The position numbers and the translations under genes were made by a program. A stretch of 64,000 nt of DNA from Xanthomonas indica. GTDB lineage: Bacteria; Pseudomonadota; Gammaproteobacteria; Xanthomonadales; Xanthomonadaceae. The DNA lies in contig NZ_CP131914.1 in the NCBI RefSeq assembly GCF_040529045.1, forward strand, positions 1,224,501 to 1,288,500, read 5' to 3'. The notes under the pieces are model-generated. The model worked only from the letters and a program-made list of their open reading frames with translations, ran no database searches and was not told the DNA's origin. Positions 11,719-31,410 of this stretch are shown here, piece by piece. Position 1 is the stretch's first letter; every line of letters starts with the position of its first letter.

Positions 11719-12861
11719 TCATCCCTGTTCCCCGTCTGCCGTCCCGCGCGCGCCGCAGACATCGCGGTACAGCGCCAGATAGGCGTCGACCATGCCATCG
11801 GCGGTGAACAACCGCCGGTATCGCGCTTCCGCGTGCCCCCCGTAGGCCGCGGCGATCTGTGGATGGTCCCACAGATAGCGCATCGCGTCGCGCAAGGCCA
11901 GCGGATCGCCCGGCGGCACCACCAGGCCGGTCTCGCCGGCGACGTTGACGAAACTGGTGCCGGTGCCGATCTCGCAGGAGATCATCGGCTTGGCGTGCAT
12001 CGCCGCTTCCAGCAAGGAGATCCCGAACGCTTCGGAGCGCAGATGCGAGGGGAACACCAGCGCCGCGCAGGCGGCGAGCAGCGCATGCTTGTCGGCTTCG
12101 TCCACGTGGCCGAGAAAGTGCACGTGGGACAGCCCCAGCGCCTGTGCCTGCGCGCGCAGGGCGGCCGCCTCCGGGCCGTCGCCCGCGATCGCGATCGGGA
12201 TCTGCAGGCCCTGCGCCGCCTGCAGCAGGACGCGCAGTCCCTTGTAGTAGCGCAGTACCCCCACGAACAACAGGAAGCGCGGGCCCAGCCGCGCGCGCCA
12301 GGCCTCCACCCGCTGCGCCGACGCTGCGTGTGCTGGCGCGTCATCCAGGCCGATGGGAATGACGCTGACCTTGGCGCGGTGCTCGGCCAGCACCGCGCTG
12401 CTGGCCAGGTAGTTCGGCGAGGTGGCGACGATGCGGCCGACGCTGCGCAGGAAGCGCCGCTGCAATGGCCGGTACAGGCGCAGCAACTGCCGTTGCCGCA
12501 CGATGTCCGAATGATAGGTGAGCACCGACGGGGTGCCCGCCGAGGCGGCGAAGTGCAGGACATCCATGAACGGCCACGGGAAGTGGTAATGGATCAGGTC
12601 GGCACGGCGCGCCAGTTGTGCGTAGCGCCGTACCAGGCCGAGCGAAACCGGCATGGACGCGACCTCGGCGATGCGCTGCAGCCGATGCAGCGTGTAGCCG
12701 GCATGGATCCGGGTGCCGGCCTGCGCAGCATCGCCGCACAGTGCCAGCACGTCGCAGTGCGCCCCGCGTGCCTGGGCGTGCTGCGCCAGCGTATGCACCA
12801 CCTGCTCGATCCCGCCGGTGGAGTCGGGCAGGGCGGTCTTGTAGACATGCAGAACGCGCAT
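11719..12861 (-). CDS. Glycosyltransferase family 4
   Basis: 380 residues. Start MRVLHVYKTALPDSTGGIEQ is typical of the GT4 N-domain. The donor domain has FLLFVGVLRYYKGLRVLL, IAGDGPEAAAL, VHFLGHVDEADKHALL and the EX7E region SEAFGISLLEAAMHAKPMI. Cytosolic-face sugar transfer in assembly of the repeat unit. It follows the other leftward GT4 gene by 19 nt. The last few codons (GARGTADGEQG) look like a non-conserved tail. Donor sugar unknown; mannosyl- or glucosyltransferases are the commonest activity of this branch. Confidence 0.88.
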   Translation of the reverse strand: MRVLHVYKTALPDSTGGIEQVVHTLAQHAQARGAHCDVLALCGDAAQAGTRIHAGYTLHRLQRIAEVASMPVSLGLVRRYAQLARRADLIHYHFPWPFMDVLHFAASAGTPSVLTYHSDIVRQRQLLRLYRPLQRRFLRSVGRIVATSPNYLASSAVLAEHRAKVSVIPIGLDDAPAHAASAQRVEAWRARLGPRFLLFVGVLRYYKGLRVLLQAAQGLQIPIAIAGDGPEAAALRAQAQALGLSHVHFLGHVDEADKHALLAACAALVFPSHLRSEAFGISLLEAAMHAKPMISCEIGTGTSFVNVAGETGLVVPPGDPLALRDAMRYLWDHPQIAAAYGGHAEARYRRLFTADGMVDAYLALYRDVCGARGTADGEQG

Positions 12862-12880
12862 CAGCCTCAGCGTCCGTGCT

Positions 12881-14023
12881 TCATGCGCGCATCGCGTCGC
12901 GATAGGCGTCGGCGGTGCGCGCGGCGCAGATGCGCCAATCGAATTCCGCAGCACGACGGCGCCCGGCTGCGCTGAGCGTCGTGCGCCACGCCGCATCGTC
13001 CAGGCCGCGCGCGAGCAAGCCGATCAGCGCATCGGTATCGCCGGGATCGAACAGCGCCGCTGCGTCGCCGGCGACCTCGGGCAGCGCCGCCGCATTGGAA
13101 CACAGCACCGCTGTGCCGCTGCCCATCGCTTCCAGTACCGGCAGGCCGAACCCCTCGTAGAGCGACGGGAACACGAACAGCCGTGCGCCGGCGACCAGCG
13201 CCGGCAGCCGCGTCTCCTCCACATAGCCCAGGTAACGCAGCCAGCCGTCGCGTTGCGCCTGCGCCATGCGCTGGTGCAGTGCCTCGCTGTGCCAGCCGGG
13301 ATGGCCGGCCACCACCAGCGGCCAGCGTGTGCGCAGCGCCGCCGGCAGCGCGGCATAGGCCTGCAGCAGCGTCTGCAGGTTCTTGCGTGGCTCGATCGTG
13401 CCCAGGAACAGCGTGTAGCCGTCGGCCTGCAGGCCCAGCGCCTGCAGCGGCGCCTGCAGTTCCTCCGCGCGGTGCGGGCGGAAGGCCGCATTGCCGGCCA
13501 GCGGAATGGCGCGGATGCGTGCCAGCGGCCAGTCGAATTGCGCGGCGATTTCCTGCCGCGAGAATTCCGAGACAGTCAGGATCAACTGTGCGCGGCGCAG
13601 CGACAGCGCGAGTTCCTTGCGCATGTAGCGCACCCGGTCGGCCCGATGGCACTCGGCCCAGCGATAGATCGAGACGTCGTGGAAGGTGGCGACGCAGGGG
13701 CCGTCGAACGCCGGCAGATAGTAGTTGCAGCCATGGAACAGGGCCGGCGCCTGGCCGCGCAGCGCGCGCGACCTGGCCGCGTTGTGCAGCCGCCGGTACA
13801 CGTCGACGGCCGGCCGGATGCCTGACAGCCGGTCGCGCAGCCACGGCACCAGCGTCGGCGCCGGGCCCGGTGCCGGCAGGTCCTGGCGCAGGTGCCGGCC
13901 ATGCAGGAAGCGCAGCGACGCGATCTGCGGCAGGGCCGCCAGCTGCGTGGCCAGTTCCTGTGTGTAGCGGCCGACGCCGGTCAGCGGATACCGGATCGAC
14001 TCCGTCGCCAGGATTACGTGCAT
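12881..14023 (-). CDS. Glycosyltransferase family 4, first gene of the leftward polysaccharide operon
   Basis: 380 residues. ATG 14023 gives MHVILATESIRYPLTGVGRYTQ, the expected start for this WbdA/mannosyltransferase-like branch; upstream in-frame extensions are low-complexity. The donor half has LFLGTIEPRKNLQTLLQAYA, LVVAGHPGW, RYLGYVEETRLPAL and FPSLYEGFGLPVLEAMGSG. It is preceded by a 370-bp gene-free stretch that should hold the promoter of the operon running to 8,422. The acceptor is probably the undecaprenyl-linked sugar made by the GumD-like enzyme two genes downstream. Confidence 0.88.
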   Translation of the reverse strand: MHVILATESIRYPLTGVGRYTQELATQLAALPQIASLRFLHGRHLRQDLPAPGPAPTLVPWLRDRLSGIRPAVDVYRRLHNAARSRALRGQAPALFHGCNYYLPAFDGPCVATFHDVSIYRWAECHRADRVRYMRKELALSLRRAQLILTVSEFSRQEIAAQFDWPLARIRAIPLAGNAAFRPHRAEELQAPLQALGLQADGYTLFLGTIEPRKNLQTLLQAYAALPAALRTRWPLVVAGHPGWHSEALHQRMAQAQRDGWLRYLGYVEETRLPALVAGARLFVFPSLYEGFGLPVLEAMGSGTAVLCSNAAALPEVAGDAAALFDPGDTDALIGLLARGLDDAAWRTTLSAAGRRRAAEFDWRICAARTADAYRDAMRA

Positions 14024-14400
14024 CGCAACAGCGGTCGCGCGCGACGCTCGGTGGGCCTGGCGGCGGGGCAGGGCGCGGCCGCCGGCGATGCATCGCGTCG
14101 GGCGAGGCTCGGCATGTCGCTGCATGGGAGGTGCTGTTGGCGCATCCTGGTTCCCCTGGTCGGACATAGAGTCTAGAACGAACCTGCGCTGCCCAGGCGC
14201 TGGGCGACCTTGGCGGGCGGCCAGCGCCGGCCTGGCACCTACGCGCTGCCGCTGCCGCCCGGCGGCCTGTGCTCCGAAGCTGCGGTGGCCGTGTCGAACC
14301 CCGCGCCGCTACTACCCTGGTCGCCGGGCCAGCAATGCGCCGGTGGCCGCAGCAGCGCCGAGAGTGATGGGTTAATCACCTTTGAATGCGCAGGAGGCAT
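14024..14400. other. Gene-free leader of the leftward polysaccharide operon
   Basis: No convincing gene: the short open frames have no conserved look and are GC-rich shadows. The stretch upstream of 14,023 should contain the promoter of the leftward operon. The only AT-leaning patch is around 14,161-14,180 (leftward strand reads TCTAGACTCTATGT), a weak candidate for a -10 region. No recognisable operator. Confidence 0.35.
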
Positions 14401-14744
14401 TCCCGCGGAGCTGCCGGATGACGTCTCGCGTCGCGGCTGACGTCGCTCCCACAAGAAGCGTTCCCGCAGGGCTGCCGGATGACGTCATGCGTCGCGGCTG
14501 AAGCCGCTCCTACAGAACGGCTCGCTGCGATCCGGCACTGGACAGCGTAGGAGCGGCTTCAGCCGCGACCTGGCCGCGAGGTCGACCGATGCGCCGCATC
14601 GCATCGCCGGATTCGCCCGCGCATGCGACTGTCCATCCGATCGCCGCTGTTGTGGGAGGGACTTCAGTCCCGACGCCTCTGCAACGGAGTTGCCGGATGG
14701 CGTCTCGCGTCGCGACTGAGGGCGCTCCCACAGGAGGCTGTCCC
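14401..14744. repeat. Palindromic REP-like repeat island 1
   Basis: Five copies or degenerate copies of a short palindrome whose core is GGAGCGGCTTCAGCCGC in either orientation: about 14,430-14,452, 14,491-14,514, 14,547-14,569 (perfect), 14,652-14,674 (GGGACTTCAGTCCC variant) and 14,709-14,731. Around three of them a longer unit of about 60 bp repeats (14,401-14,460; 14,461-14,520; 14,685-14,744), sharing CTGCCGGATG and CGTC-CGCGTCGCG. The hairpin stem GCGGCT/AGCCGC is kept by compensating changes in the ACT/AGT variants. This looks like a REP/BIME family such as those mobilised by RAYT transposases; no such transposase is in the window. Confidence 0.8.
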
Positions 14745-14804
14745 GCGATCCGGCACCACGCTGGTGCGACCGGTGTCGCGTCGTGCGCAACGACGCGCGC
14801 CACC

Positions 14805-19097: not shown

Positions 19098-22073
19098 ATG
19101 CTGCAGAAGCCGCTCGCCGACAGGAAGCGCGACCATCGCTTTCGGCACAGCCTGCGACGCGTCACGCGCGCGCCGCTGCGGGCGATCGCGACCTGGGGCC
19201 TGGTGCTGGCGGTGCTGTTGGCCATGGGGCTGGTGCTGGTGCTGGCGCAGGACCGCCACAACCGCCTGGCCGCGGCGCAGCGCCAGAGCCTGGCGCTGGC
19301 CACCGGCGCCGACCGGCTGCTGCAGCTGCAACTGGACAATCTCGGCCAGGCCCTGCATGGCGAAGGCCTGGGCGCGCAGGCATTGCTGGCGGAGACGCCG
19401 GTGCGTGCGCCCGACCTGATCGCCGCCTCGTTGCGCGGCCTGCTGGCGCGGCATCCGGAGCTGCACGACGTGGCCTTGCTGGATGCGCAGGGCCAACGCC
19501 GCTTCGGCGGCGCCGGCGATGCGCAACTGCGCGCCTGGCGGCAACGTGGGCGCTGCGGCGATCGGATCTGCGTGAGCCCGCCGCTGCGCCTGGCCGATGG
19601 CACGGCAGTGGTGCGGGTGGCCGTGCCCTGGGGAACGGACGGCTGGGTGGAGGCGCAATGGCGGGTGGCCGCGCTGCAGCGGATCGTGCAAGGCACCGAC
19701 AGCGGGCGCGACGGCATCGTCGCCCTGACCGACGCGCAGGGCAGGCTGCTGGCCGCCAGCCGCCTGCTTGCGGCCAGCCAGCCGCGGCTGCCGCTGGCAC
19801 TCGCGCAGCCGATGCCGCACGGCGGCGCGCTGGGGCTGCACCGCGATGTCTTCGACCGCACGCCGCGGATCCTGGCGCTGAGCGGTGGCGGCGCGTATCC
19901 CTTGCTGGCGGTGGCCGGCGTGGGGCTGCGCGAGACGTTGTCCGGCTGGTGGTGGTTCGCCGCGGCGGCGGCGCTGGTGTACGTGCTGTACCTGCTCGGC
20001 CTGGGCTATCTGCTCGGCAGCCTGCGCCGTGCCGAGCGGCGCCAGCGCCATCTGCTGCAGCGCCTGCGCCGCGGCGACGAGGACCTGCGCCTGGCGCACG
20101 GCATGGGCGGCATCGGCACATGGCGCATCGACATCGCCGAGCGCGTGCTGCGCCTGTCCGAGCCGACCGGGGCGATGTTCGGCCTGCAACGCATGCAGAT
20201 GCCCATCGAGGCGTTCCTGGAGCGGCTCCACGTCGAGGATCGCGCGCGAGTGGAGCAGTTGTACGAGGACGCCGCGCAAGGGCGCGCGGACTACAACACT
20301 GTCTACCGCATGCATCTGCCCGATGGACGCCTGCGCTGGCTGGCCGCGCGTGGCGCGCTGGTGCGTACCCGCACGGGCATGTGCATGACCGGCGCGGTGC
20401 AGGACGTCAGCGATCGCGTGGCGGCGCAGGCGCGTCTGCTCGATGCCGAGCGCCAGTTCCGGCTGGTGTTCGATCGCAATCCGCTGCCGTATTGGGTGTT
20501 CGCCGTGGACAGCCTGCGCTTCCTGGAAGTGAACCAGGCCGCAGTGCGCCAGTACGGCTACAGCCGCGAGGAATTCCTGACGATGGACCTGCGCGATCTG
20601 CGCCCGGCCGAGGATGCCGAGCGGTTGCTGCAGGACGTGCGCAAACCGCGGCAGGGGTTCGATGCGCCGAGCATGTGGACGCACCGGCGCAAGGACGGCA
20701 GCCTGCTGTCGGTGTGCATCCATAGCGCCGACCTGGAATTCGGCGGCGTGCCGGCGCGGCTGATCCTGGCCGAGGACGTCACCGAGCGCGTGGCCCACGA
20801 GCGCGAACTGGCCTATCTGGCGCGCCATGAGTTCAGCACCGGCCTGCTCAAGCCGCACGCCCTCGCCGACGCCTTGCGCGCCCAGCGCGGCGGCTACGCC
20901 ATCGCCTACGTGCAGGTGCGCGGGCTGGCCTTGATCGGCGACACCCTGGGCCGCGCCGTCGGCGACGCGGTGCGCAGCGCGGTGGCCGCGCGCATTCGCG
21001 CGCTCGGCGAGCGTTTCGGCCTGAGCGCGCACCAGCCGGCGCAGGACTTCGTGCTGGCGATCCTGGATCCGCAGGCCCTGCCGCAGGCCTTGCAGGCGCT
21101 GCAGGAGGCGCTGTATGCGCCGGTGCAGGGTGGCGAGTTCGCCCAGCAACTGCAGGCGCACATCGGCGTGGCGCTGTGTCCGGACGATGCCGCCGACGCC
21201 GACGAGGCCATCGGCAGCGCCGCGCAGGCCGCGCATGCGGCACAGGCCGAGGGCCGCAGCCTGGTGCGCTTCGACCGCGCCATGGCGGCACGCACCGGCG
21301 AACGCCTGCGCCTGGCCGGACGCCTCCAGCAGGCGATCGAGCGCCAGGAGTTCGAACTGCACTTCCAGCCGATCATGCACGCCGGCAGCGGTGCGCCGCG
21401 CGAGCTCGAGGCCCTGATCCGCTGGCCGCAGGCCGACGGCAGCTTCATTGCGCCGGATGCGTTCATCCAGTTGTGCGAGGACACCGGGCTGATCCTGCCG
21501 CTGGGGCGGTGGGTGCTGCGCGCGGCGGCGCGCGCGCGCCGCGCACTGGCCGACCACGGATGGCCGGACCTGCCGGTGGCGGTGAACGTGTCGGCGCTGC
21601 AGTTCTTCGATGGCGATCTGGTCGCCGACCTGGTGCAGGCCTGCACCGATGCCGGGCTGGCCGCCGACGGCCTGCAGCTGGAACTGACCGAGAGCAGCCT
21701 GATGCGGCAGCCGCAGCAGGCCGGCGACGTGCTGCGGCAACTGCGCGCGCTGGGCGTGCGCGTGGCCCTGGACGATGTCGGCACCGGGTTCTCCAGCATG
21801 GCGTATCTGCGCGACCTGCCGCTGGACACGCTGAAGATCGACCGCAGCTTCGTCGCCGAGGTGGACCGCGACCCGCGCAACGCCTCGATCTGCCAGGCGC
21901 TGCTGACCCTGGGGCATTGCCTGGGGCTGGACGTGGTCGCCGAGGGCGTGGAAACCGACGCGCAGTTGCGCTGGCTGCGCGCGCACGGCTGCGGCGGCGT
22001 GCAGGGTTATCTGCTGGGACGCCCGGCGCCGTTGCCGCAGGTGCTGCAGCGGCTCGGCGCGGTCACAGCATGA
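19098..22073 (+). CDS. Membrane PAS-PAS-(degenerate GGDEF)-EAL c-di-GMP phosphodiesterase
   Basis: 991 residues. TM1 at about residues 30-52, a periplasmic sensor region to about 275, and TM2 around 280-305. Two PAS-like domains follow (start near GIGTWRIDI and FRLVFDRNPLPYWVF). The GGDEF-like domain has lost its signature: where GGDEF should be the sequence reads QPAQDF. The C-terminal EAL domain keeps the catalytic set: EALIRW, NVSALQF, LTESSL, DDVGTGFSSM, KIDRSFV, EGVETDAQ and VQGYLLGRP. It should hydrolyse c-di-GMP to pGpG at the inner membrane in response to a periplasmic cue. Its 3' end overlaps the converging Rieske gene by 11 bp. A cyclase gene lies 1 kb away on the opposite strand. 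Confidence 0.9.
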   Translation: MLQKPLADRKRDHRFRHSLRRVTRAPLRAIATWGLVLAVLLAMGLVLVLAQDRHNRLAAAQRQSLALATGADRLLQLQLDNLGQALHGEGLGAQALLAETPVRAPDLIAASLRGLLARHPELHDVALLDAQGQRRFGGAGDAQLRAWRQRGRCGDRICVSPPLRLADGTAVVRVAVPWGTDGWVEAQWRVAALQRIVQGTDSGRDGIVALTDAQGRLLAASRLLAASQPRLPLALAQPMPHGGALGLHRDVFDRTPRILALSGGGAYPLLAVAGVGLRETLSGWWWFAAAAALVYVLYLLGLGYLLGSLRRAERRQRHLLQRLRRGDEDLRLAHGMGGIGTWRIDIAERVLRLSEPTGAMFGLQRMQMPIEAFLERLHVEDRARVEQLYEDAAQGRADYNTVYRMHLPDGRLRWLAARGALVRTRTGMCMTGAVQDVSDRVAAQARLLDAERQFRLVFDRNPLPYWVFAVDSLRFLEVNQAAVRQYGYSREEFLTMDLRDLRPAEDAERLLQDVRKPRQGFDAPSMWTHRRKDGSLLSVCIHSADLEFGGVPARLILAEDVTERVAHERELAYLARHEFSTGLLKPHALADALRAQRGGYAIAYVQVRGLALIGDTLGRAVGDAVRSAVAARIRALGERFGLSAHQPAQDFVLAILDPQALPQALQALQEALYAPVQGGEFAQQLQAHIGVALCPDDAADADEAIGSAAQAAHAAQAEGRSLVRFDRAMAARTGERLRLAGRLQQAIERQEFELHFQPIMHAGSGAPRELEALIRWPQADGSFIAPDAFIQLCEDTGLILPLGRWVLRAAARARRALADHGWPDLPVAVNVSALQFFDGDLVADLVQACTDAGLAADGLQLELTESSLMRQPQQAGDVLRQLRALGVRVALDDVGTGFSSMAYLRDLPLDTLKIDRSFVAEVDRDPRNASICQALLTLGHCLGLDVVAEGVETDAQLRWLRAHGCGGVQGYLLGRPAPLPQVLQRLGAVTA

Positions 22074-23076
22074 TCTCCACGTCGTGGCCGCTGCCCGGCG
22101 CCGGCAGCGCCTCGCCTGCCCAGTAGCGGCGCAGCGGTTCGCGCACCAGGTCCAGCGCGGTGGAGGCACCGCGCGCGCCCGGGTAGCGCTGCAGGTTGCG
22201 CGACTGCAGTGCGAGCATGCGCCGGTCCTGCTCGCCGACCCGGCGCAGCAGCGGCCACACCAACAGGCGCACCGCCCACGCCGGCGCCCAGCGTCCCTCC
22301 ACGTGCAGGCTGGCGAAGACCTCGGTGCTGCGCACGCCGAGCGGGGTGAAGTGCAGGCTGATCCGCACGCGGCCGCCGCGCGCATAGCGGTACTCGATCT
22401 GCGCGCTGCCAGGGGCGGCGAAATGCGCGCGTTCCAGCGTGCGCGGCGATTCGAACAAGCGGTACAGCCAGCCGCTCTGCGCCGCGGCGCCGCGGTAGTC
22501 CACGTGGAAGCCTTCCTCGGTGTGGCGCAGTTCGGCGCGCATGGCGGTGCGTGCGCCGCCGCGTCGCACCAGCCCCGGATGCAGCAGATGCGTGTGCAGC
22601 GGATCCAGGAAGTTCTCCAGCGCATCGACCACGTGCGCGTCCCAGCGCGTGCGCCACAGGAAGCGCCGCGCCGAGGGCTGCAGCGCCTGTACCAGGTGCG
22701 ACGGCGCGTCCGCGCCTTCCGGATCGGGACGCAGCCAGATCAGGCCGTCGTGCTCGCGCGCGGCGAAGGCGCGCACCCGCACGGCCGGCGGCGTCTGCCC
22801 GGGTGGCAGGCCGGGGATCTCGCGCAGGGCGCCGGTGTGGTCGAAGCGCCAGCCGTGATACGGGCAGGACAGGCCGTCGCCGGTGACGCAGCCGGCCGAC
22901 AGCGGCGCGTGCCGATGCGGGCAGCGGTCTTCCAGCGCCAGCAGGCGGCCGTCGGCGCAGCGCGCGATCGCCGCATGCCGGTCCATCACCGATACCGCCA
23001 GCGGTCGTCGTCGCAACGCCGTGGCGGGCGCGACGGCGAACCACTGCCGGTACAGGGACGGATGCCAGGTACTCAT
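22063..23076 (-). CDS. Rieske [2Fe-2S] oxygenase, aromatic-ring-hydroxylating alpha-subunit type
   Basis: 337 residues. The N-terminal Rieske cluster is CPHRHAPLSAGC...CPYHGW, the C-X-H...C-X2-H pattern. The catalytic domain has the mononuclear iron motif in ENFLDPLHTHLLHPG (H-X4-H). Such enzymes oxygenate aromatic, sterol or amine substrates with electrons from a separate reductase; none is adjacent. The gene is the last in the leftward run from 30,350 and lies 43 bp after the cyclase gene, so co-transcription is possible. The substrate is unknown. A link to the KASIII/ATP-grasp cluster is inference from position only. Confidence 0.85.
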   Translation of the reverse strand: MSTWHPSLYRQWFAVAPATALRRRPLAVSVMDRHAAIARCADGRLLALEDRCPHRHAPLSAGCVTGDGLSCPYHGWRFDHTGALREIPGLPPGQTPPAVRVRAFAAREHDGLIWLRPDPEGADAPSHLVQALQPSARRFLWRTRWDAHVVDALENFLDPLHTHLLHPGLVRRGGARTAMRAELRHTEEGFHVDYRGAAAQSGWLYRLFESPRTLERAHFAAPGSAQIEYRYARGGRVRISLHFTPLGVRSTEVFASLHVEGRWAPAWAVRLLVWPLLRRVGEQDRRMLALQSRNLQRYPGARGASTALDLVREPLRRYWAGEALPAPGSGHDVEIML

Positions 23077-23119: not shown

Positions 23120-24307
23120 TCATGCGATGGCGGTGCCGGCGATCCGGTTGCGGCCGGCGCGCTTGGCCGCGTACAGCGACTGGTCCGCCGCCAGCACCAG
23201 GGCCTGCCAGGACGCCTGCGCGCCTGGCGACAGGCAATAGCCGATGCTCACCGTGCACGCCAGCGGCGCCTCCTGCGCGGCGCCGATCTGTTGCTGTTCG
23301 ATGCGTCGCCGTAGGCGCTCGGCGAGATCGCGCACGCCCGCCTCGTCGGCCTGCGGAACCAGCACCATGAACTCCTCCCCGCCGATGCGCGCCAGCAGGT
23401 CGGGCAGGCGGATCTGCTGCGTCAGCGTCTGCGCGATGGCGACCAGCACCTGGTCGCCGACGGCATGGCCGAAGCGGTCGTTGATTGCCTTGAAATGATC
23501 CACGTCGATCATCAGCACCGCGATCGACGCGTGCCGGCGCGCGGCATCGAGCGTCGCCGCCTCGCCGCGCTCCCACATCACCCGGCGGTTGGTCACGCCG
23601 GTGAGCGGATCCTGCGAGGCGTGTCGGGTCAGCTCCGCGTTCATTTCGCGGGTCAGCATCCAGAGGAAGCCCGGGGTGATGCTGGCGGTCAGCACGATGC
23701 GCGAGAGCAGGCCGAAGTTGGTGGTCGGGTCGTAGCTGGTGTCGACGTCCGGATGGAAGGCCCACCAGGCCACCCGCAACCCCACCATGCCAGCCCACAG
23801 GAAATGGAAGACCGCGGTGAAGCGCGCTGCCGCGCGCACCGTGCTGTCGGCATGGCGCCACAGCACCACCGCCGTGGCCACGGTCAGCATGCCGCGCACC
23901 AGGCCGCCGAAGATCACCATGATCCGGTGATCGAGGCCGGTGTAGTGCAGGCTGTAGAGTTCCAGTGCGCACAGCAGCGCGACCGGTACCAGCAACGTCC
24001 ATTGCAGCAGCGGGCGCTGCAGGTAGGCATTCACCGCCACGAGCGTCAGGATGGTGGCCACGTCGAGGGTGACGTTGCCGGCGGGCGCGACCCAGGTCGC
24101 CATGTAGTGCCAGGCCGGCGCCAGCAGGGTGCCGAAGCCCAGGGCGAACACGCCGTAGCTCAGCGCCAGCAGCAACAGGCTGCGCGCATGCCGTTCCTTG
24201 CGGCCGGTGACGTACAGGGCCAGGAACATCGCCGAGGACACCGCCGCGAGCAACGCATTGACGATCAGCAGGGTGCCGGCATGGGCCAGATGCGCAATCC
24301 ATTCCAC
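23120..24307 (-). CDS. Diguanylate cyclase with 7-TM sensory head
   Basis: 395 residues from GTG 24307 (MEWIAHLAHAGTLL), chosen because the first hydrophobic helix begins right after; a TTG at 24388 would add a Cys-rich, unlike segment. Seven hydrophobic helices span residues 1-225. The GGDEF domain then has DHFKAINDRFGHAVGDQVL and ARIGGEEFMVLVP, with an intact inhibitory I-site RLPD five residues before GGEEF, so product-inhibited c-di-GMP synthesis is expected. Inner membrane. An AT-rich stretch with TATACT (24,354-24,359) and an inverted repeat precede it, suggesting its own promoter between it and the biosynthetic operon. Confidence 0.9.
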   Translation of the reverse strand: MEWIAHLAHAGTLLIVNALLAAVSSAMFLALYVTGRKERHARSLLLLALSYGVFALGFGTLLAPAWHYMATWVAPAGNVTLDVATILTLVAVNAYLQRPLLQWTLLVPVALLCALELYSLHYTGLDHRIMVIFGGLVRGMLTVATAVVLWRHADSTVRAAARFTAVFHFLWAGMVGLRVAWWAFHPDVDTSYDPTTNFGLLSRIVLTASITPGFLWMLTREMNAELTRHASQDPLTGVTNRRVMWERGEAATLDAARRHASIAVLMIDVDHFKAINDRFGHAVGDQVLVAIAQTLTQQIRLPDLLARIGGEEFMVLVPQADEAGVRDLAERLRRRIEQQQIGAAQEAPLACTVSIGYCLSPGAQASWQALVLAADQSLYAAKRAGRNRIAGTAIA

Positions 24308-24384
24308 AGATGTCCCGGGCCGCAGCGGCGATGGGGTGTTGCAGGTGCAGCAAAGTATAAGGCAGCGGGTGCGCCCGGCATTCG

Positions 24385-24448: not shown

Positions 24449-25564
24449 TCACAGCCGATACCGGCGCATCAGTGGCACGCCGACGCGCCGGGTCAGCGCG
24501 CCGAGCGCGGCGATCGGCTGGCGTCGCCGCAACGGCAGGTGCCGCGCATCGACCGCGCTGTACTCGATGACCGGCACGCCGCCGCGCTGGCGCTTGAAGC
24601 TGGCCGCGCCGGCGCTCTGGTTGAGGCGCTGGCCGTACCGTCGCGCATGGTCGATGCCGCAGGCGGTGAGGGTCCGGTACAGCGCCAGCCGCTGCGGCAG
24701 GCGCAGGTCGTAGCCGACGATCGGCGCGGTGACGGTGCCGCCGATGCCGAACAGGCCGGTGATGCACACCAGTTGCCCGGTGGCGTCGCGGAAGCCATCG
24801 AAGCGCAGCAGCCCGGCGCGGTGCCAGGCGCGCAGGAAGCCGGCGTGGTAGGCCGGATTGCAACGCGAATATTTTTCCAGATACAGCTGCGCATACAGCG
24901 CGGCGATGCGCGGGTAATCGGCCTCGCCGATGGCCTCGTTGCCGCAGCGCTGCAGGTCGCGGCGGTCGACGAGCTTGAGGTCGCGGGCCAGGTCGCGATG
25001 GCGCAGCAGCTGCGGCCAGTCTTCGTACAGGTAGACCTGGCGGCTGGCGATCAGGGTGAAGCCCTCGGCCTGCAGCGCGTGCAGCCACTGCGGCGTGTCC
25101 ACCGCGTTGAGCGAGCGGAACCACAGCGCGTGGTCGGGCCAGCGCGAGCGTGCGGCGTCCAGCAGCGTGCGCAGGCCGCTCGGCGGCAGCGGCGGATAGA
25201 GGTTGGTGGACAGCAGCCAGTTGTTGAGGGTGACCGCGCGGTCGATGCGCGCCCAGTCCAGCCACGCGCCGATGCCGCCGCACAGCCCGCGCACCGGTGC
25301 GGCCAGCGCGCCCGGCAGCAGCCGCGCGGCTTCCTCGGCGGCGTAGTCGGCATACGTGGTGCGCGGCGAGCAGACCCAGGCATTGCCCGGGTGGCGCTCG
25401 CCGACCGTCACCGGCAGCGCCAGTGCGCCGGCGCGCAGCACTTCGATGCGTGCATGCGCATTGTCGGCCAACTGCTGCGCCTCGCCGCCGGCATGCAGTG
25501 CGGCGAAACGCTGCAGCTGCGCGGCGTAATCGGCCGCCGCGGCCTCGGCATCGGCGCCGGTCAT
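24449..25564 (-). CDS. FemAB/GNAT-like acyl- or aminoacyl-transferase (putative)
   Basis: 371 residues, soluble. The C-terminal half looks like a GNAT/FemAB fold: RIAALYAQLYLEKYSRCNP, GLLRFDGFRDATGQLVCIT, and near the end LNQSAGAASFKRQRGGVPV, reminiscent of the late lysine-containing FKR.RG motif of FemAB-like transferases. The N-terminal half (ERHPGNAWVCSPRTTYADYA) is not recognised. Start ATG 25564 overlaps the stop of the ATP-grasp gene (ATGA), so the two proteins are translationally coupled. It is the last gene of the KASIII operon. Likely role: transferring an acyl or aminoacyl group to the cluster product (inference). Confidence 0.6.
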   Translation of the reverse strand: MTGADAEAAAADYAAQLQRFAALHAGGEAQQLADNAHARIEVLRAGALALPVTVGERHPGNAWVCSPRTTYADYAAEEAARLLPGALAAPVRGLCGGIGAWLDWARIDRAVTLNNWLLSTNLYPPLPPSGLRTLLDAARSRWPDHALWFRSLNAVDTPQWLHALQAEGFTLIASRQVYLYEDWPQLLRHRDLARDLKLVDRRDLQRCGNEAIGEADYPRIAALYAQLYLEKYSRCNPAYHAGFLRAWHRAGLLRFDGFRDATGQLVCITGLFGIGGTVTAPIVGYDLRLPQRLALYRTLTACGIDHARRYGQRLNQSAGAASFKRQRGGVPVIEYSAVDARHLPLRRRQPIAALGALTRRVGVPLMRRYRL

Positions 25565-26745
25565 GGCGGCGGCAGCGCCTCGCCGTCCCATTCGGTGTCG
25601 CGGGTGGCGGCCTCGCGGACGCTGCAGCGCTGCGCCAGCGCCAGCCGCGCATGGCTGCCCAGGTCGCACAGCGTGCCGGCCAGCGGCCAGCGGTCGCCGC
25701 GCGGCGCCAGCACGTCCTCGGCGCGCGCGTAGTCCTGACGCCACTGCCGCAGGCGGCCATGGCCCAGCGCCGCGGGCAGCGCCACGCCCAGCATCAGCAT
25801 GCCCAGCATCGCCGCGCGGTCGTCGGCCGGGCGCAGCGGCGCCGCCGTCGGACCCGCGTCGCCGCACAGCACGCCCACCAGCGGGTCGGCTGCGGCGAAC
25901 AGGTGCAGGCCGCTGGTCGCGCGCGGATTGCATTCGATCACGCTGCAGCGCCCTTCCGACGACACCATCCAGTCGAAGGAGATCTGCCCGGTGAAGCGCA
26001 GCGCCTGTACCAGTTGCGCGGTGAAGCGCTCGATCTGCGGATCCGGCGCCGCGTCGAAGTAATAGCTGGAACTGCGCCGCAGCCGATAGCGCGGGCGGTA
26101 CACCACATGCGCCAGCAACGCGCCGTCGCGCGCCAGCGCGTACGAGCAGCGCTCCTCGCCCGCACAGTAGCGCTGCGCGACCCAGTCGCCCTGCGCGGGC
26201 AGCGGCGCGGCATCGGTGGGTACACCGTCCGGGTACAGCCGCACATGCACGCCGAAGCGCGAGAACTCCGGCTTGAGCACCAGCGGTTCGGAACCGGCCC
26301 ACTCGCGTGCCTGCGCCAGGTTGCGCACGCGCACGCCGGCAGGCACCTCCACGTCGTCGCTGCCGAGCCCGCGCGCCAGTTCCATGAAGTGGTACTTGCT
26401 GTGCAGCGTGCGCAACGTGTTGAAGTCGTGCAGCGGCAGGTGCAGCTGCGCCGGCAGCGCGCTGCGGTAGCGGGCCAGGTAGAACACCTCTTCGCAGGTC
26501 GGCACCAGCACGTCGATGCGCTCGCGCGCGAGCAGGGCATTGAGGTCGGCCAGCCAGGCGCGCGGCGCATCGCGTGCCGGCGCCACACGGTGATGCGCGG
26601 CCACCGCGCGTGACCAGCCGGAAATGCGGCTGGCGACGCTGTCGGCCAGGTGCACCCGCCAACCCTGCGCGGCGAAACGGCGCGCCAGGTCCAGCGCGAC
26701 CGGCGCGCGCGCGCCGGTGATCAGCACGCCGGGCGCCTCAGCCAT
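25561..26745 (-). CDS. ATP-grasp carboxylate ligase-type protein
   Basis: 394 residues. An N-terminal Rossmann-like pre-ATP-grasp domain (VLITGARAPVALDLARRFAAQG) and the segment VLVPTCEEVFYLA come first. ATP-binding elements follow: EPLVLKPEFSRFG, GDWVAQRYCAGEERCSYA, and the metal-binding IECNPRATSGLHLF (E-x-N-P-R). ATP-grasp enzymes join a carboxylate, via an acyl-phosphate, to an amine or thiol. The start overlaps the metallo-hydrolase gene by 8 bp and the end overlaps the FemAB-like gene by 4 bp. In context it may amidate the acid made by the KASIII/reductase pair (inference). Substrates unknown. Confidence 0.82.
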   Translation of the reverse strand: MAEAPGVLITGARAPVALDLARRFAAQGWRVHLADSVASRISGWSRAVAAHHRVAPARDAPRAWLADLNALLARERIDVLVPTCEEVFYLARYRSALPAQLHLPLHDFNTLRTLHSKYHFMELARGLGSDDVEVPAGVRVRNLAQAREWAGSEPLVLKPEFSRFGVHVRLYPDGVPTDAAPLPAQGDWVAQRYCAGEERCSYALARDGALLAHVVYRPRYRLRRSSSYYFDAAPDPQIERFTAQLVQALRFTGQISFDWMVSSEGRCSVIECNPRATSGLHLFAAADPLVGVLCGDAGPTAAPLRPADDRAAMLGMLMLGVALPAALGHGRLRQWRQDYARAEDVLAPRGDRWPLAGTLCDLGSHARLALAQRCSVREAATRDTEWDGEALPPP

Positions 26746-27586
26746 GCCTGTGCGCCGCCTGCGCTGGCCGCCATTGCCGGCAATGCGAGGGCACCAGCCG
26801 CAACCCCGGCTCGGCCTGGCGCAGCGCATGCAGTCGCGCCAGGGTGTCGCGGTACACGCGATGCTCGCCGAGCAGGCGGGTGACCAGCGCCGGCGGCGGC
26901 GTGCCGTCGGCGAGCGCGGCGCTGGACCAGGCCGCATCGGCGATCAGGAACACCGGGCCCTGCGCGTCCTCGAACCACAGGCCGTAGTGGCCGGGCGCAT
27001 GCCCGGGCAGCGGTACCAGCAGCACGCTGCCGTCGCCGAACAGGTCGCGCGGTGGGCCGAAGTCGCGCAGCGCGGCGGGCGTTGCGGCCGCGGGCAGCGC
27101 TTCGATCCAGTGCATGCGCGGGCGCGCGCCATGCAGCAGCGCCGGCAGGAAGCCTTCGCGCAGTGCGGCCAGGCGGCCGCGGCGCTGCAGGTCGTCCCAG
27201 GCCTGTCGTGCGCAGGCCAGGCGTGCCTGCGGGAAATCGGCGACACCGCCGACGTGGTCGCCGTGGAAGTGCGACAGCACGATCCAGCCGATGCGGTCCG
27301 GATCCACGCCGTCGCGTGCGAGTTGCTCGCGCAGCGATTGCCCGGGCGCCAGCTGCACCGGGGTCAGCCAGCGGTACAGGCGCTCGGGAAAGCGCGCGGT
27401 GGCGTCGAAGAAGTGGCGCGCGTAGCCGGTGTCGAACAGCAGGTCGCCGTGCTGCGGATGCTGCAGCAGGGCCGCCAGCGCCGGGAACGGACACGGCGCC
27501 AGCGGCGCGCCGCGGCGCGTGGCGCGTTCGGGGTGCGTGCAGTGGCCGGCTTCGTACAGCCGCCAGCGCAGCCGGGGCGCGCTCAT
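26738..27586 (-). CDS. Metallo-beta-lactamase-fold hydrolase (lactonase/thioesterase-like)
   Basis: 282 residues. It has the zinc-binding signature SHFHGDHVGG (HxHxDH), then PLPGHAPGHYGLWF, the bridging-acid region LIADAAWS, and a late VPSHC histidine. Together these give a complete dinuclear metal site as in AiiA-type lactonases and related esterases. No signal peptide, so cytosolic. The start overlaps the reductase stop (ATGA) and its end overlaps the ATP-grasp start. Within the operon it could hydrolyse a thioester or lactone intermediate. A quorum-quenching role is possible but has no support in the context. Confidence 0.85.
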   Translation of the reverse strand: MSAPRLRWRLYEAGHCTHPERATRRGAPLAPCPFPALAALLQHPQHGDLLFDTGYARHFFDATARFPERLYRWLTPVQLAPGQSLREQLARDGVDPDRIGWIVLSHFHGDHVGGVADFPQARLACARQAWDDLQRRGRLAALREGFLPALLHGARPRMHWIEALPAAATPAALRDFGPPRDLFGDGSVLLVPLPGHAPGHYGLWFEDAQGPVFLIADAAWSSAALADGTPPPALVTRLLGEHRVYRDTLARLHALRQAEPGLRLVPSHCRQWRPAQAAHRHG

Positions 27587-28560
27587 GACTGCCCCAGCGC
27601 GGCCAGCCCGGCCTCGGTCGACAGCACCGGCGCATAGCCGAGTTCGCGGCGCGCGCGGCCGATGTCCAGCGTCTGCGAATAGCCGAGCACGCCGATGCCG
27701 TAGCGGCTGAGCCGCGGCTCGGGCTGGCCGCGTCGGCGCAGCGCGATCTGTTCGCCGAGCGTGGCCAGGGCCAGCGCCGGCCCGCGCGGTACCGGCAGCA
27801 GCCGCACGCGCAGGCGCAGCACCGCGAACAGTTCGGTCACCAGGTCGCGCACGGCGATCGGTGTGCCGTTGCTGATGTTGTAGGCGCGGCCGTCGCCGAT
27901 GTGCTCGGCACGCAGCGCGGCCAGCGCCGCGGCCACCGCATTCTCCACGCAGCACACGTCGATCATCGCGCGGCCGCCGTTGACCAGCGGGAACCAGCCG
28001 CGCTGCGCCACCGCCAGCAGCCGCGGCACGATCGCGTTGTCGCCATGGCCGAACACCGCGCGCGGGCGCAGCACCACCGCCGGCAGCCCGGCCGCCGCCG
28101 CCGCGCGCACCTTCTCCTCGGCTTCCCACTTGGTCTGCGGGTAGCCGCCGATCCAGCGCGCCGGCGGGGTGAAGTCTTCGGTGATCTGGTATTGATCGTT
28201 GAAGCGGAAGTAGATGCTCGGCGAACTGAAGTGCACGAAGCGGCGCACACGCGCAGCCAGCGCGGCGTCGAGCAAACGCTCGGTGGCGACCACGTTGGCC
28301 AGGCGGAAGGTCTCGGCGCTGGCCCACGGCGCCGACAGCGCGGCGCAGTGGATCACCGCATCGCAGCCGTGCAGCAGTGGCGCCAACGCGTCGTGGCAGA
28401 GGTCGGCGCGCTGCACCTCGATGCGCGGATCGTTGGCGAAGGCCGCCAGCTTGGCGGCGTCGCGGCCGCTGGCGCGCACCGGCACGCCGGCCTCGGCCAG
28501 TGCGCGCACGATGTAGGCGCCGATAAACCCGGACGCGCCGGTGACCAGGACGCGGGCCAT
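27583..28560 (-). CDS. NAD(P)-dependent epimerase/3beta-HSD-like reductase (OleD-like)
   Basis: 325 residues, extended short-chain dehydrogenase. Nucleotide-binding GASGFIGAYIVRAL, then DAVIHCAALSAPWA, HFSSPSIYF and the catalytic YPQTK (YxxxK). The 3beta-HSD-like features and the pairing with a KASIII-type synthase resemble OleA/OleD, where OleD reduces a 2-alkyl-3-ketoacid to the 3-hydroxyacid (established for Xanthomonas/Stenotrophomonas olefin synthesis). OleB and OleC are not present here, so a different end product is likely. ATG 28560 follows the KASIII stop by one base. Confidence 0.8.
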   Translation of the reverse strand: MARVLVTGASGFIGAYIVRALAEAGVPVRASGRDAAKLAAFANDPRIEVQRADLCHDALAPLLHGCDAVIHCAALSAPWASAETFRLANVVATERLLDAALAARVRRFVHFSSPSIYFRFNDQYQITEDFTPPARWIGGYPQTKWEAEEKVRAAAAAGLPAVVLRPRAVFGHGDNAIVPRLLAVAQRGWFPLVNGGRAMIDVCCVENAVAAALAALRAEHIGDGRAYNISNGTPIAVRDLVTELFAVLRLRVRLLPVPRGPALALATLGEQIALRRRGQPEPRLSRYGIGVLGYSQTLDIGRARRELGYAPVLSTEAGLAALGQS

Positions 28561-28561
28561 G

Positions 28562-29578
28562 TCAGTAGCGCAACACCGCGCCGCCGAACGCCAGCCCGGC
28601 GCCGGAGCCGACCAGGCCGATCAGGTCGCCGCGGACGATGCGGCCGCTGGCGATCGCCTGGTGCAACGCGCCGGGAATCGACGCGGCCATCTGGTTGCCG
28701 CGGTGGCCGATCACCTCGATCAGCGCATCCGGCGCCAGCCCCAGCGCCACGCGCAGATGGCGCAGCGCCTTGGCGCTGGCCTGGTGCGGCACGATCCGCC
28801 GCAACTGCGCCAGCTCGACCCCGGCCTGCGCCAGCAGCCGCTGCAGGAAGCCGGGCAGCTTCGCCGCGGCCAGGCGGTAGGTGGCGCGGCCGTTCATTTC
28901 GAACTGCGAACCGGCGCGCAGCGCCTCGACGCCGTGATCCAGGCGCAGGCGGGTGCCGCCGGCGCGCACGCGGCAGTGGTCGATGCCTTCGGAGTAGGTT
29001 TCCAGGCGCGCGGTCAGCAACTGCGAACCGCTGTCGCCGGTGTCGGCGCCGAGCACCACCGCCGCGGCGCCATCGCCGAACAGCGGCGCGGTGTCCGCAT
29101 CGTCCGGGTTGAGGCCGACGCTGGCGATCTCGCTGGAGACGATCAGCACGCGGCGATAGCGGCCGGCGGCGATCGCGCCCGCGGCCAGGTCGAGCGCGGC
29201 GATGAAGCTCAGGCAGGTGGCGTTGATGTCGAAGGCCGGGATGCCGCTGCCCTGCAGGCCCAGCCGCGCGTGCAGCAGCGCCGCGCTGCACGGGATCGCC
29301 TGTTCCATCAGGCTGCAGGCGCTGATCACGCAATCGACCTCGTGTGCCTGCAACTGCGCCGCCTCCAGCGCCGCGCGCGCGGCGCGCTCGCCCATCAAGG
29401 TGGCCGGCTCGTCGGCGCCCGCATAGTGCCGCGTGGCCACCCCGGTGTGCCGCAGGGTCCAGCCGGCGGGCTTGCCCCAGCGCCGGTCGAAGGTCTCCGC
29501 CGGCACTTGCTGCGCGGGCAGGTACTCGCCCGTGCCGAGGAGACGCAGCGCAATGGGCCTGCTGGTGTCGACGCTCAT
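28562..29578 (-). CDS. 3-oxoacyl-ACP synthase III-like (KASIII/OleA-type) condensing enzyme
   Basis: 338 residues, normal thiolase-fold length. The catalytic triad is visible: Cys122 in DINATCLSFIAAL, His265 in VPHQAS and Asn295 in GHRGNQMAAS. Also FGDGAAAVVLG and the C-terminal GLVGSGAGLAFGGAVLRY. It would catalyse Claisen condensation of acyl-CoA or acyl-ACP in the cytosol. ATG 29578 gives MSVDTSRPIALRLLGTGEYLP, a standard KASIII start. First enzyme of a five-gene overlapping run. It is not the housekeeping fabH, which normally sits with plsX/fabD (family knowledge), and no acyl carrier protein gene is adjacent. Confidence 0.87.
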   Translation of the reverse strand: MSVDTSRPIALRLLGTGEYLPAQQVPAETFDRRWGKPAGWTLRHTGVATRHYAGADEPATLMGERAARAALEAAQLQAHEVDCVISACSLMEQAIPCSAALLHARLGLQGSGIPAFDINATCLSFIAALDLAAGAIAAGRYRRVLIVSSEIASVGLNPDDADTAPLFGDGAAAVVLGADTGDSGSQLLTARLETYSEGIDHCRVRAGGTRLRLDHGVEALRAGSQFEMNGRATYRLAAAKLPGFLQRLLAQAGVELAQLRRIVPHQASAKALRHLRVALGLAPDALIEVIGHRGNQMAASIPGALHQAIASGRIVRGDLIGLVGSGAGLAFGGAVLRY

Positions 29579-29648
29579 CCGTAAAGCTCGCACAAGGGGC
29601 GCGCAGCGTACTGCCAGCACGTCGGCGCCGGCAACCGCAGCGACGCGC

Positions 29649-30350
29649 TCAGCGCCCGCGGCGCTGCCCGTACCAGAAGCCGAGCGCGTCGCGCGAGCGC
29701 AGCATGCCGCGGCCGCGGCGCAGCAACTGCAGCAACAGCCCCAGGTGCTCGCGCTTGCTGAAGCTGCGCAGCTTGCGGTCGGAGGTGTGCACCGGCTCGC
29801 GCAGGATCACGAAGCGTCCCTGCCGCGCCAGCGCGCGGCTCAGGGCGACGTCCTCGCCGGCGTAGTAGCGCTCGTCGAAGCCGCCGGCGGCGACGAAGGC
29901 GCTGCGCGTGCAGAACAGGAAGCAGCCGGGGGCGATGCCGGTGCAGCGGAACAGCCAGCCGAACAGCGCCTGGGCCAGGCGTTCGTGCCAGGCGATGTCG
30001 CCGAGCAGGCGCACCTGCGCGCCGCCGCCGACCGCGCCGGTGCCCAGCGCCCGCAGCGCCGCGGCCAGCAGTGGCGTATTGACCCGGGTGTCGGCATCGA
30101 CGAACAGCAGATGGCGGCCGCGGCTGGCGGCGGCGCCGGCATTGCGCACGGCGGCGATATGCCGCAGTTCCACTTCCAGCACCTGCGCGCCGTGCCGGCG
30201 CGCGATCTCGGCGGTGGCGTCGCTGCAGGCATCGGCCACCACCAGCGTCTCGCAGTCCAGCCGCAGCGCCTGGGCGGCGACGTGCAGCGAGGCCAGCGTG
30301 TCGCCGATCAGGGCGGCTTCGTCGTGCGCGGGGACGATGAAGGAGATCAC
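29649..30350 (-). CDS. Glycosyltransferase family 2
   Basis: 233 residues, GT-A fold. GTG 30350 gives MISFIVPAHDEAALIGDTL, the canonical GT2 opening; upstream in-frame sequence is Pro/Arg-rich and unlikely coding. Further motifs are LVVADACSDAT, LLFVDADTRV (the metal-binding DxD) and GGFDERYYAGEDVALSRAL. No transmembrane segments. It lies 70 bp upstream of the KASIII gene on the same strand and may be the first gene of that operon, adding a sugar to the lipid-like product, or may be independent. Confidence 0.82.
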   Translation of the reverse strand: MISFIVPAHDEAALIGDTLASLHVAAQALRLDCETLVVADACSDATAEIARRHGAQVLEVELRHIAAVRNAGAAASRGRHLLFVDADTRVNTPLLAAALRALGTGAVGGGAQVRLLGDIAWHERLAQALFGWLFRCTGIAPGCFLFCTRSAFVAAGGFDERYYAGEDVALSRALARQGRFVILREPVHTSDRKLRSFSKREHLGLLLQLLRRGRGMLRSRDALGFWYGQRRGR

Positions 30351-30414
30351 CCGCGCATCATGCGGGGCCGGCGCGGCGCGGGCAATCGACCCGCGCCGCG
30401 GCCGGGGACGCGGT

Positions 30415-31410
<996 letters not shown>

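Follow-up and report, generated by a model that had tools for sequence, protein, structure and literature searches.

What does a packed set of five unassigned genes in Xanthomonas indica make? The set lies in a window of 64,000 nucleotides (the whole stretch of DNA that was analysed; contig NZ_CP131914.1, positions 1,224,501 to 1,288,500), where it runs on the minus strand in the order E-D-C-B-A and spans 24449-29578. An earlier note, made from the sequence of the window alone, had read it as a biosynthetic operon. We consider it about an even chance (a probability of roughly 0.5) that these five genes, together with a nearby Rieske oxygenase gene, R, are the form taken in Xanthomonas by a modular, widespread pathway for a small lipid or lipid-like metabolite. 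The genes concerned, in window coordinates, are as follows.

E, 28562-29578, minus strand: KASIII ketosynthase of the FabH/CorB type, first gene of the operon
D, 27583-28560, minus strand: extended short-chain dehydrogenase/reductase (SDR), an OleD-like 3-oxoacyl reductase
C, 26738-27586, minus strand: hydrolase of the metallo-beta-lactamase (MBL) fold, AttM-like and lactonase/thioesterase-like
B, 25561-26745, minus strand: ATP-grasp ligase
A, 24449-25564, minus strand: double-GNAT transferase of the FemX/MprF fold
R, 22063-23076, minus strand: Rieske oxygenase, probable sixth member
GGDEF diguanylate cyclase gene, 23120-24310: lies between A and R
F, 29649-30470 (29649-30350 in the range of the earlier note), minus strand: GT2 glycosyltransferase, not part of the system

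A packed operon conserved across phyla

The open reading frames and their junctions are exactly as the earlier note gave them: five tightly packed genes, with ATGA junctions between B and A (25561-25564) and between D and C (27583-27586), an eight-base overlap of B and C (26738-26745) and a single base, 28561, separating E from D. The best start for E is the ATG at 29578, a GTG at 29620 being a longer alternative, and from that ATG the numbering of the Cys122/His265/Asn295 triad is correct. The YxxxK of D, the HxHxDH of C and the ExNPR of B (here ECNPR) are likewise present, and conserved in relatives.

A profile scan with an alignment of A, combined with two peptide patterns, gave 276 confirmed relatives, of which the best 80 by similarity were kept; fractions of these 80 describe A-bearing loci rather than bacteria at large, and some of the loci lie on short contigs. 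The earlier reading hung on the genes being co-conserved in other genomes, and they are, far past the Xanthomonadaceae: E, D, C, B and A occur together in 57 of the 80 loci, spread over six phyla, namely Pseudomonadota, Bacillota, Acidobacteriota (locus L077), Verrucomicrobiota (L080, L089), Planctomycetota (L098) and Eremiobacterota (L096, a phylum labelled Eremiobacterota or Vulcanimicrobiota). Gene by gene, E was found in 64 loci, D in 61, C in 62, B in 75 and a further SDR gene, S, in 27. An adenylate-forming enzyme that we call X was found in 51, its gene lying after C and before B or A. In 76 of the 80 loci every core gene that was found (of E, D, C, X, B and A) is on the same strand, which, with the 57 complete sets, argues that the grouping is not due to chance. 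Pseudomonadota typically have the order E-D-C-(X)-B-A-R, Paenibacillaceae the order E-B-D-C-X-A-S.

Co-occurrence was also assessed within the family. Among 198 same-family genomes, 19 had a match to A, 17 to B and 44 to C (E <= 1e-15); A and B co-occurred in 16 and disagreed in four (Fisher p 1e-19), and a C relative was present in 17/17 genomes with B as compared with 27/181 of the others, the p-values for these comparisons ignoring shared ancestry. Ten of 17 larger same-family stretches carried all of E-D-C-B-A. A is rare overall, with three matches in 369 class-level genomes, one of which is the window itself and another reaches only 41 bits.

Some variants of the locus deserve mention here. 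In 10 of the 80 loci a divergent gene that by eye resembles a helix-turn-helix regulator lies beside E (for example L064, 2785-3558); none was seen beside E of the window. In L092, L093 and L094 (Brevibacillus reuszeri and an uncultured Brevibacillus) the operon looks eroded, with no match to D and C in short pieces, and in L092 a stop codon falls within the range of B. Single hits to A (L045), C (L065) and E (L091) also contain an internal stop codon.

Proposed condensation, reduction and hydrolysis

The ketosynthase E scores 358.9 bits against NCBIfam PRK07204, below the cut-off of 402. Its nearest solved relatives are 4yuc (CorB, 190.8 bits) and 4v2p (named only 'ketosynthase', which we take to be MxnB; 188.2 bits), as against about 157 bits for FabH-type structures, 91 bits for the Pseudomonas quinolone signal (PQS) enzyme 3h76 and about 53 bits for the 3row group, named ACP synthase III and presumably OleA. 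In a KASIII tree of 76 rows, operon E proteins and CorB stand apart from the FabH-like, the OleA-like and a third paralogue of the genome (97/98, with long-branch caveats). E carries the active-site motif NA(S/T)CLSF common to CorB and MxnB, and the triad is retained in the 80 loci (Cys 63/63, His 63/63, Asn 62/63). This and the other motif counts for the 80 loci refer to near-full-length hits and loose patterns, so figures of 100% partly reflect looseness; stricter patterns gave lower counts (YxxxK, 24/60), and counts over alignment columns are the stricter measure.

The olefin or beta-lactone pathway OleABCD offers an obvious comparison, since there, too, a KASIII, an OleD-like SDR and (in relatives of our locus) an adenylate-forming enzyme come together in one operon. 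If the locus were of this kind, E would be OleA, D would be OleD, X would be OleC-like and C would replace OleB; OleD is indeed the best NCBIfam model for D (185.6 bits), X is adenylate-forming and C resembles lactonases. The residues of the ketosynthase point elsewhere. At the position of the OleA glutamate E has Ile95, and nine further operon E proteins that were aligned have Ile or Leu, whereas a separate OleA-like protein of the window genome (L128) has Glu in the same alignment. According to PMC4578411, the catalytic glutamate is Glu117 in OleA and Glu105 in PpyS, and the hydrophobic V94 occupies this position in CorB and MxnB. The Glu of 'MEQAIP' in E was considered as an OleA-type glutamate and rejected, being three residues off by our alignment and by the same source. 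An OleA-type mechanism for E, and with it the OleA-like step proposed in the earlier note, is thus disfavoured. Furthermore, E is far nearer to CorB than to the 3row group, D falls far under the OleD equivalog cut-off of 580, and X belongs to TIGR02304 and not to OleC. Pfam and NCBIfam scans found neither OleB nor OleC among the operon genes of the window, and tailoring genes of an amino-acid type are present. We therefore regard an OleABCD-like pathway as very unlikely.

The kinship with CorB and MxnB, the ketosynthases of corallopyronin and myxopyronin synthesis, comprises both the closeness of the solved structures and a hydrophobic residue where OleA and PpyS have Glu. The setting differs: no polyketide synthase or acyl carrier protein genes were noticed in the operon, and D would reduce the very keto group that is needed for pyrone closure. 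We favour a reaction in which E, as a FabH/CorB-type rather than OleA-type enzyme, would join a malonyl or beta-keto nucleophile to an acyl thioester by condensation, giving a beta-ketoacyl thioester, which D would reduce to a 3-hydroxyacyl thioester. The YxxxK of D was found in 60/60 hits.

C matches Pfam Lactamase_B at 52.7 bits and AttM at 66.4 bits, and its sequence is most similar to N-acyl homoserine lactone (AHL) lactonases. Its predicted metal ligands (H106, H108, D110, H111, H196, D217 and H268) are invariant in 18/18 aligned proteins, and HxHxDH was found in 58/58 hits. C would probably hydrolyse a thioester (or a lactone), freeing or trimming the product, for example a 3-hydroxy acid. 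With the AHL lactonases AttM and AiiA it shares HxHxDH and the further His and Asp ligands, but the equivalog cut-off of AttM, 390, is not reached. That shortfall bears on another explanation, a catabolic or defensive set that hydrolyses and recycles foreign acyl lactones, as in quorum quenching: although lactonases are the nearest relatives of C, condensing ketosynthases, ATP-grasp ligases and adenylating enzymes belong to anabolism, and we hold this explanation to be highly improbable.

Proposed activation and tailoring

X is a TIGR02304 protein ('F390 synthetase-related protein'). It meets the cut-off of 251.9 in three members scanned (475, 456 and 413 bits), and two of its three solved relatives are phenylacetate-CoA ligases. 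In most relatives of the locus it would convert a carboxylic acid to an acyl-AMP or acyl-CoA. The window has E-D-C in the order of the X-containing family, with B and A, but X is lacking from both operon and genome. More widely, no TIGR02304 match over the cut-off was found in 14 Xanthomonadaceae genomes (among 20 searched), the genome of L044 giving one weak match of 58.9 bits. Without X in the window genome, acyl thioesters would have to come from general metabolism. The starter acids may already be thioesters, B may have taken over activation, or the Xanthomonas pathway may have changed.

B scores 311.3 bits against PRK06849 (cut-off 406), and its solved relatives are weak (AMdnB, 27.4 bits, and carbamoyl-phosphate synthase). 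K158, the ATP-binding lysine, and the metal motif E271-C-N-P-R275 are invariant in 26/26 alignment rows, one row with a stop codon in its range having been dropped beforehand; ExNPR was found in 79/79 hits. B would link the hydroxy acid, by way of an acyl phosphate, with an amine of the amino-acid type.

For A, whose sequence gave little, structure prediction, proposed as a check in the earlier note, told more. Window protein scans found no Pfam family at E <= 0.1 and no NCBIfam match, no model of either collection matched the family members scanned, and membership in Pfam FemAB or LPG_synthase_C was not found. FemAB (PF02388) had no match in the genomes of six relatives, and the profile of A, run against PDB sequences, returned only weak, unrelated-looking matches. 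MprF homology by sequence was tried with hhalign against three MprF domains and rejected (probability 0.2). The AlphaFold model is confident (predicted local distance difference test score, pLDDT, 96.6) and is predicted to hold two GNAT domains in the FemX topology, with Sbb17, FemX and MprF as its best structural matches; other tandem GNATs score Z 12 to 14, so the lead of these matches is modest. Lys324, in the C-terminal GNAT domain, is invariant in 42/42 proteins. PMC12945691 describes Lys305 of FemX, and gives DhpH-C, PacB and VlmA as further double-GNAT transferases dependent on aminoacyl-tRNA. A thus resembles FemX/MprF-type transferases in its predicted overall fold and in an invariant C-terminal lysine, and differs in having no sequence relation to the three MprF domains or to Pfam FemAB. 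Because the likeness to MprF is one of fold only, the donor of A may be aminoacyl or acyl; A would put this group on the new amine or on the hydroxyl.

Three Shewanella loci (L083, L099 and L118) carry two further A-like genes after R, at about 12500-14750, and in L083 the genes that lie between and after these two encode, by Pfam match, a beta-lactamase-like serine hydrolase and an MFS transporter. The three copies of A in each Shewanella locus may serve to add to the product more than once.

R matches Pfam Rieske (74.6 bits) and VanA_C (38.7 bits). It is present in 46 of the 80 A-bearing loci, at most 200 bases after A in 43 of them, and its motifs CxH/CxxH and DxxHxxxxH occur in 46/46. Among its nearest solved relatives are NdmA, dicamba demethylase and SxtT/SxtDIOX, and it would hydroxylate the product. 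The GGDEF gene between A and R is missing in L024 and in X. chitinilytica (L043).

The GT2 glycosyltransferase F scores 102.1 bits against TIGR04283 (cut-off 182). It adjoins the operon in the window and in L020-L024, all of the same genus, and in 0/12 other same-family stretches, five of which carry the full E-D-C-B-A. We rejected it as a member on these grounds, and likewise an aldo/keto reductase gene that was seen beside same-genus operons only.

These results bear directly on the pathway drawn in the earlier note, in which an acid activated by B is handed to a FemAB-like A for N-acylation and GT2 adds a sugar. The predicted FemX double-GNAT fold of A and the co-occurrence of B and A speak for it. 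Yet ATP-grasp enzymes usually ligate directly, B without A and A without an adjoining B both exist, so B need not feed A, and the place of GT2 within one genus leaves glycosylation unsupported. We give that version little chance, while its idea of an amide in the product is still plausible. Its view of the five genes as one biosynthetic unit also stands; the activating enzyme of the cluster family is more probably X than B. In one relative a DUF3419 gene replaces B before A, and B occurs without A in three genomes, which makes an independent ligase the more likely role of B.

The core with other modules

A search of 398 Pseudomonadota genomes with TIGR02304 gave 14 matches in 13 genomes: those of at least 154 bits lay beside D and C relatives in 9/9 cases, those below 94 bits in 0/5. 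Four genomes from a single family (L143-L146) have E-D-C-X but no A, and relatives of PAP2, sterol-desaturase and desaturase genes lie beside it in L143-L145 but not L146. The same set was found in L151 and, divergent, in L179 when 104 loci were searched, L064 giving a weak sterol-desaturase match only. L151 (6200-13081) and L157 (NZ_CP016497.1, 1473450-1480331) are E. coli loci, in which E-D-C-X is accompanied by genes for a PAP2 phosphatase, a sterol-desaturase family protein and an acyl-CoA desaturase. Coverage of these seven genes as a set reaches at least 80% in 671 of 5,426 complete E. coli genomes (about 12%), and in two records inspected gene by gene it is located between narI and purU. 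Other modules, identified by family name, take the place of this one elsewhere. On two Rhodobacterales plasmids a divergent sulfotransferase gene and a TetR gene lie beside E-D-C-X, and on a Rhizobium plasmid a DUF3419 (BtaA-like) gene precedes A. A DUF3419 protein next to A, where B would otherwise stand, is seen in CP041205.1.

That B-A-R acts on a product of the core is best supported by genomes in which the two are unlinked. Five of six genomes with loci holding only B-A-R have a core elsewhere, either E-D-C (three Lysobacter) or E-D-C-X (Herbaspirillum and Cupriavidus), and two genomes with E-B-A-R have D-C-X elsewhere. The Herbaspirillum E-D-C-X belongs to the E. coli type, since the PAP2/desaturase set adjoins it in divergent orientation; B-A-R of this strain may serve that core or another one.

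Since the variants share condensation, reduction and hydrolysis (and most of them activation), and differ in how a hydroxyl, an amine or the chain is modified, the simplest reading is a 3-hydroxyacyl product whose head group can be exchanged. The family as a whole would probably build a fatty hydroxy acid and decorate it, in most cases with an amino acid. We infer every reaction, the order of the steps and all substrates; what was observed is the gene set, the motifs, the predicted fold of A, conservation, co-occurrence and module swapping. More tentatively, and a little short of even confidence, E-D-C-X, found in at least six phyla, could be the chassis of an undescribed class of lipids or lipid-like signals, which a sizeable fraction of E. 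coli would then make. Its head groups would then come from exchangeable modules: ATP-grasp, FemX-like and Rieske enzymes; DUF3419 and FemX-like proteins; a sulfotransferase; or PAP2, hydroxylase and desaturase. In kind the clusters look akin to the FabH-like ones for lipids or polyketides, and there is a real chance that they make a new class of lipid.

A different product, an aryl-polyketide or alkylquinolone-like signal, has to be weighed against this. The PqsA, PqsD and PqsE proteins, which are an ANL enzyme, a KASIII and an MBL thioesterase, yield an alkylquinolone precursor, and X, E and C form a trio of the same kind with the same division of labour. X would activate an aromatic acid in the manner of the PaaK family, E would add malonyl like PqsD, C would be the PqsE-like thioesterase, and B, A and R would decorate the product. 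The phenylacetate-CoA ligases among the relatives of X fit such a scheme, as does a LuxI/LuxR-like pair upstream of E in L143. However, E is more than twice as close in bits to CorB (191) as to 3h76, the tailoring genes are others, the operon holds an OleD-like reductase for which we know of no counterpart in PQS synthesis, the window genome is without X, and the desaturase and sterol-desaturase-type genes of the E. coli version point to lipids. An alkylquinolone-like signal is thus unlikely.

The lipid reading invites comparison with the BtaA betaine-lipid and Ols ornithine-lipid pathways, with which the family shares the logic of a head group and an N-acyl chain. DUF3419, which we take to be linked to BtaA, lies beside A relatives, and L143 encodes an OlsE-like protein of the sterol-desaturase type (65.4 bits; cut-off 475). 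The differences are that no OlsA/OlsB-type gene was noticed in the window and that, to our knowledge, the E-D-C-X core has no counterpart in either pathway.

Several findings weigh against the proposal of a modular lipid pathway. All of the chemistry would be read from distant homologues: in the window, none of B, C, D and E reaches the curated cut-off of its best NCBIfam model, and A shares a fold but no sequence with MprF. The lack of any TIGR02304 match in the window genome means that the pathway there may be altered or partly decayed. The GGDEF gene splits R from A in the window and in several same-genus relatives, so that co-transcription of R is only putative. The parts also come apart: B occurs without A in three genomes (which carry the core E-D-C-X with B and R), A stands alone, within about 9 kb on each side, in five Paenibacillus loci, and the genome of L048, a B-A-R-only locus, showed no core E, just a FabH-level match of 152 bits. 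Finally, 27 of the 181 same-family genomes without B still have a C relative, so that C alone is not specific.

The earlier note knew of no characterised pathway with this set of genes, and we found no report on the cluster and no assignment of the same gene order among the papers listed by searches of an open-access library; subscription journals and preprints lie outside that coverage, so an existing report is possible. A product of the proposed kind would add a class of lipids or signals to well-studied bacteria, give TIGR02304 a function and explain the double-GNAT family of A. Module swapping, in turn, predicts that the head group varies from host to host while the core chain stays the same.

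Some further observations concern variants of the core and its modules. DUF3419/BtaA-like genes (340.6 and 322.4 bits) lie directly before distant A relatives (28-31% identity) in L035 (4624-7045) and L036 (721-3150). The LuxI/LuxR-like pair of L143 (1745-3113) lies about 2.1 kb upstream of E-D-C-X and the desaturases, with scores well below the model cut-offs; density control of this version would be a guess. By annotation, the Pseudomonas Leaf58 plasmid pBASL58 (L155) carries E-, D-, C- and X-type genes scattered among hypothetical genes, and pMPPla107 (L152), like pBASL58 a very large plasmid, has X alone in the stretch viewed.

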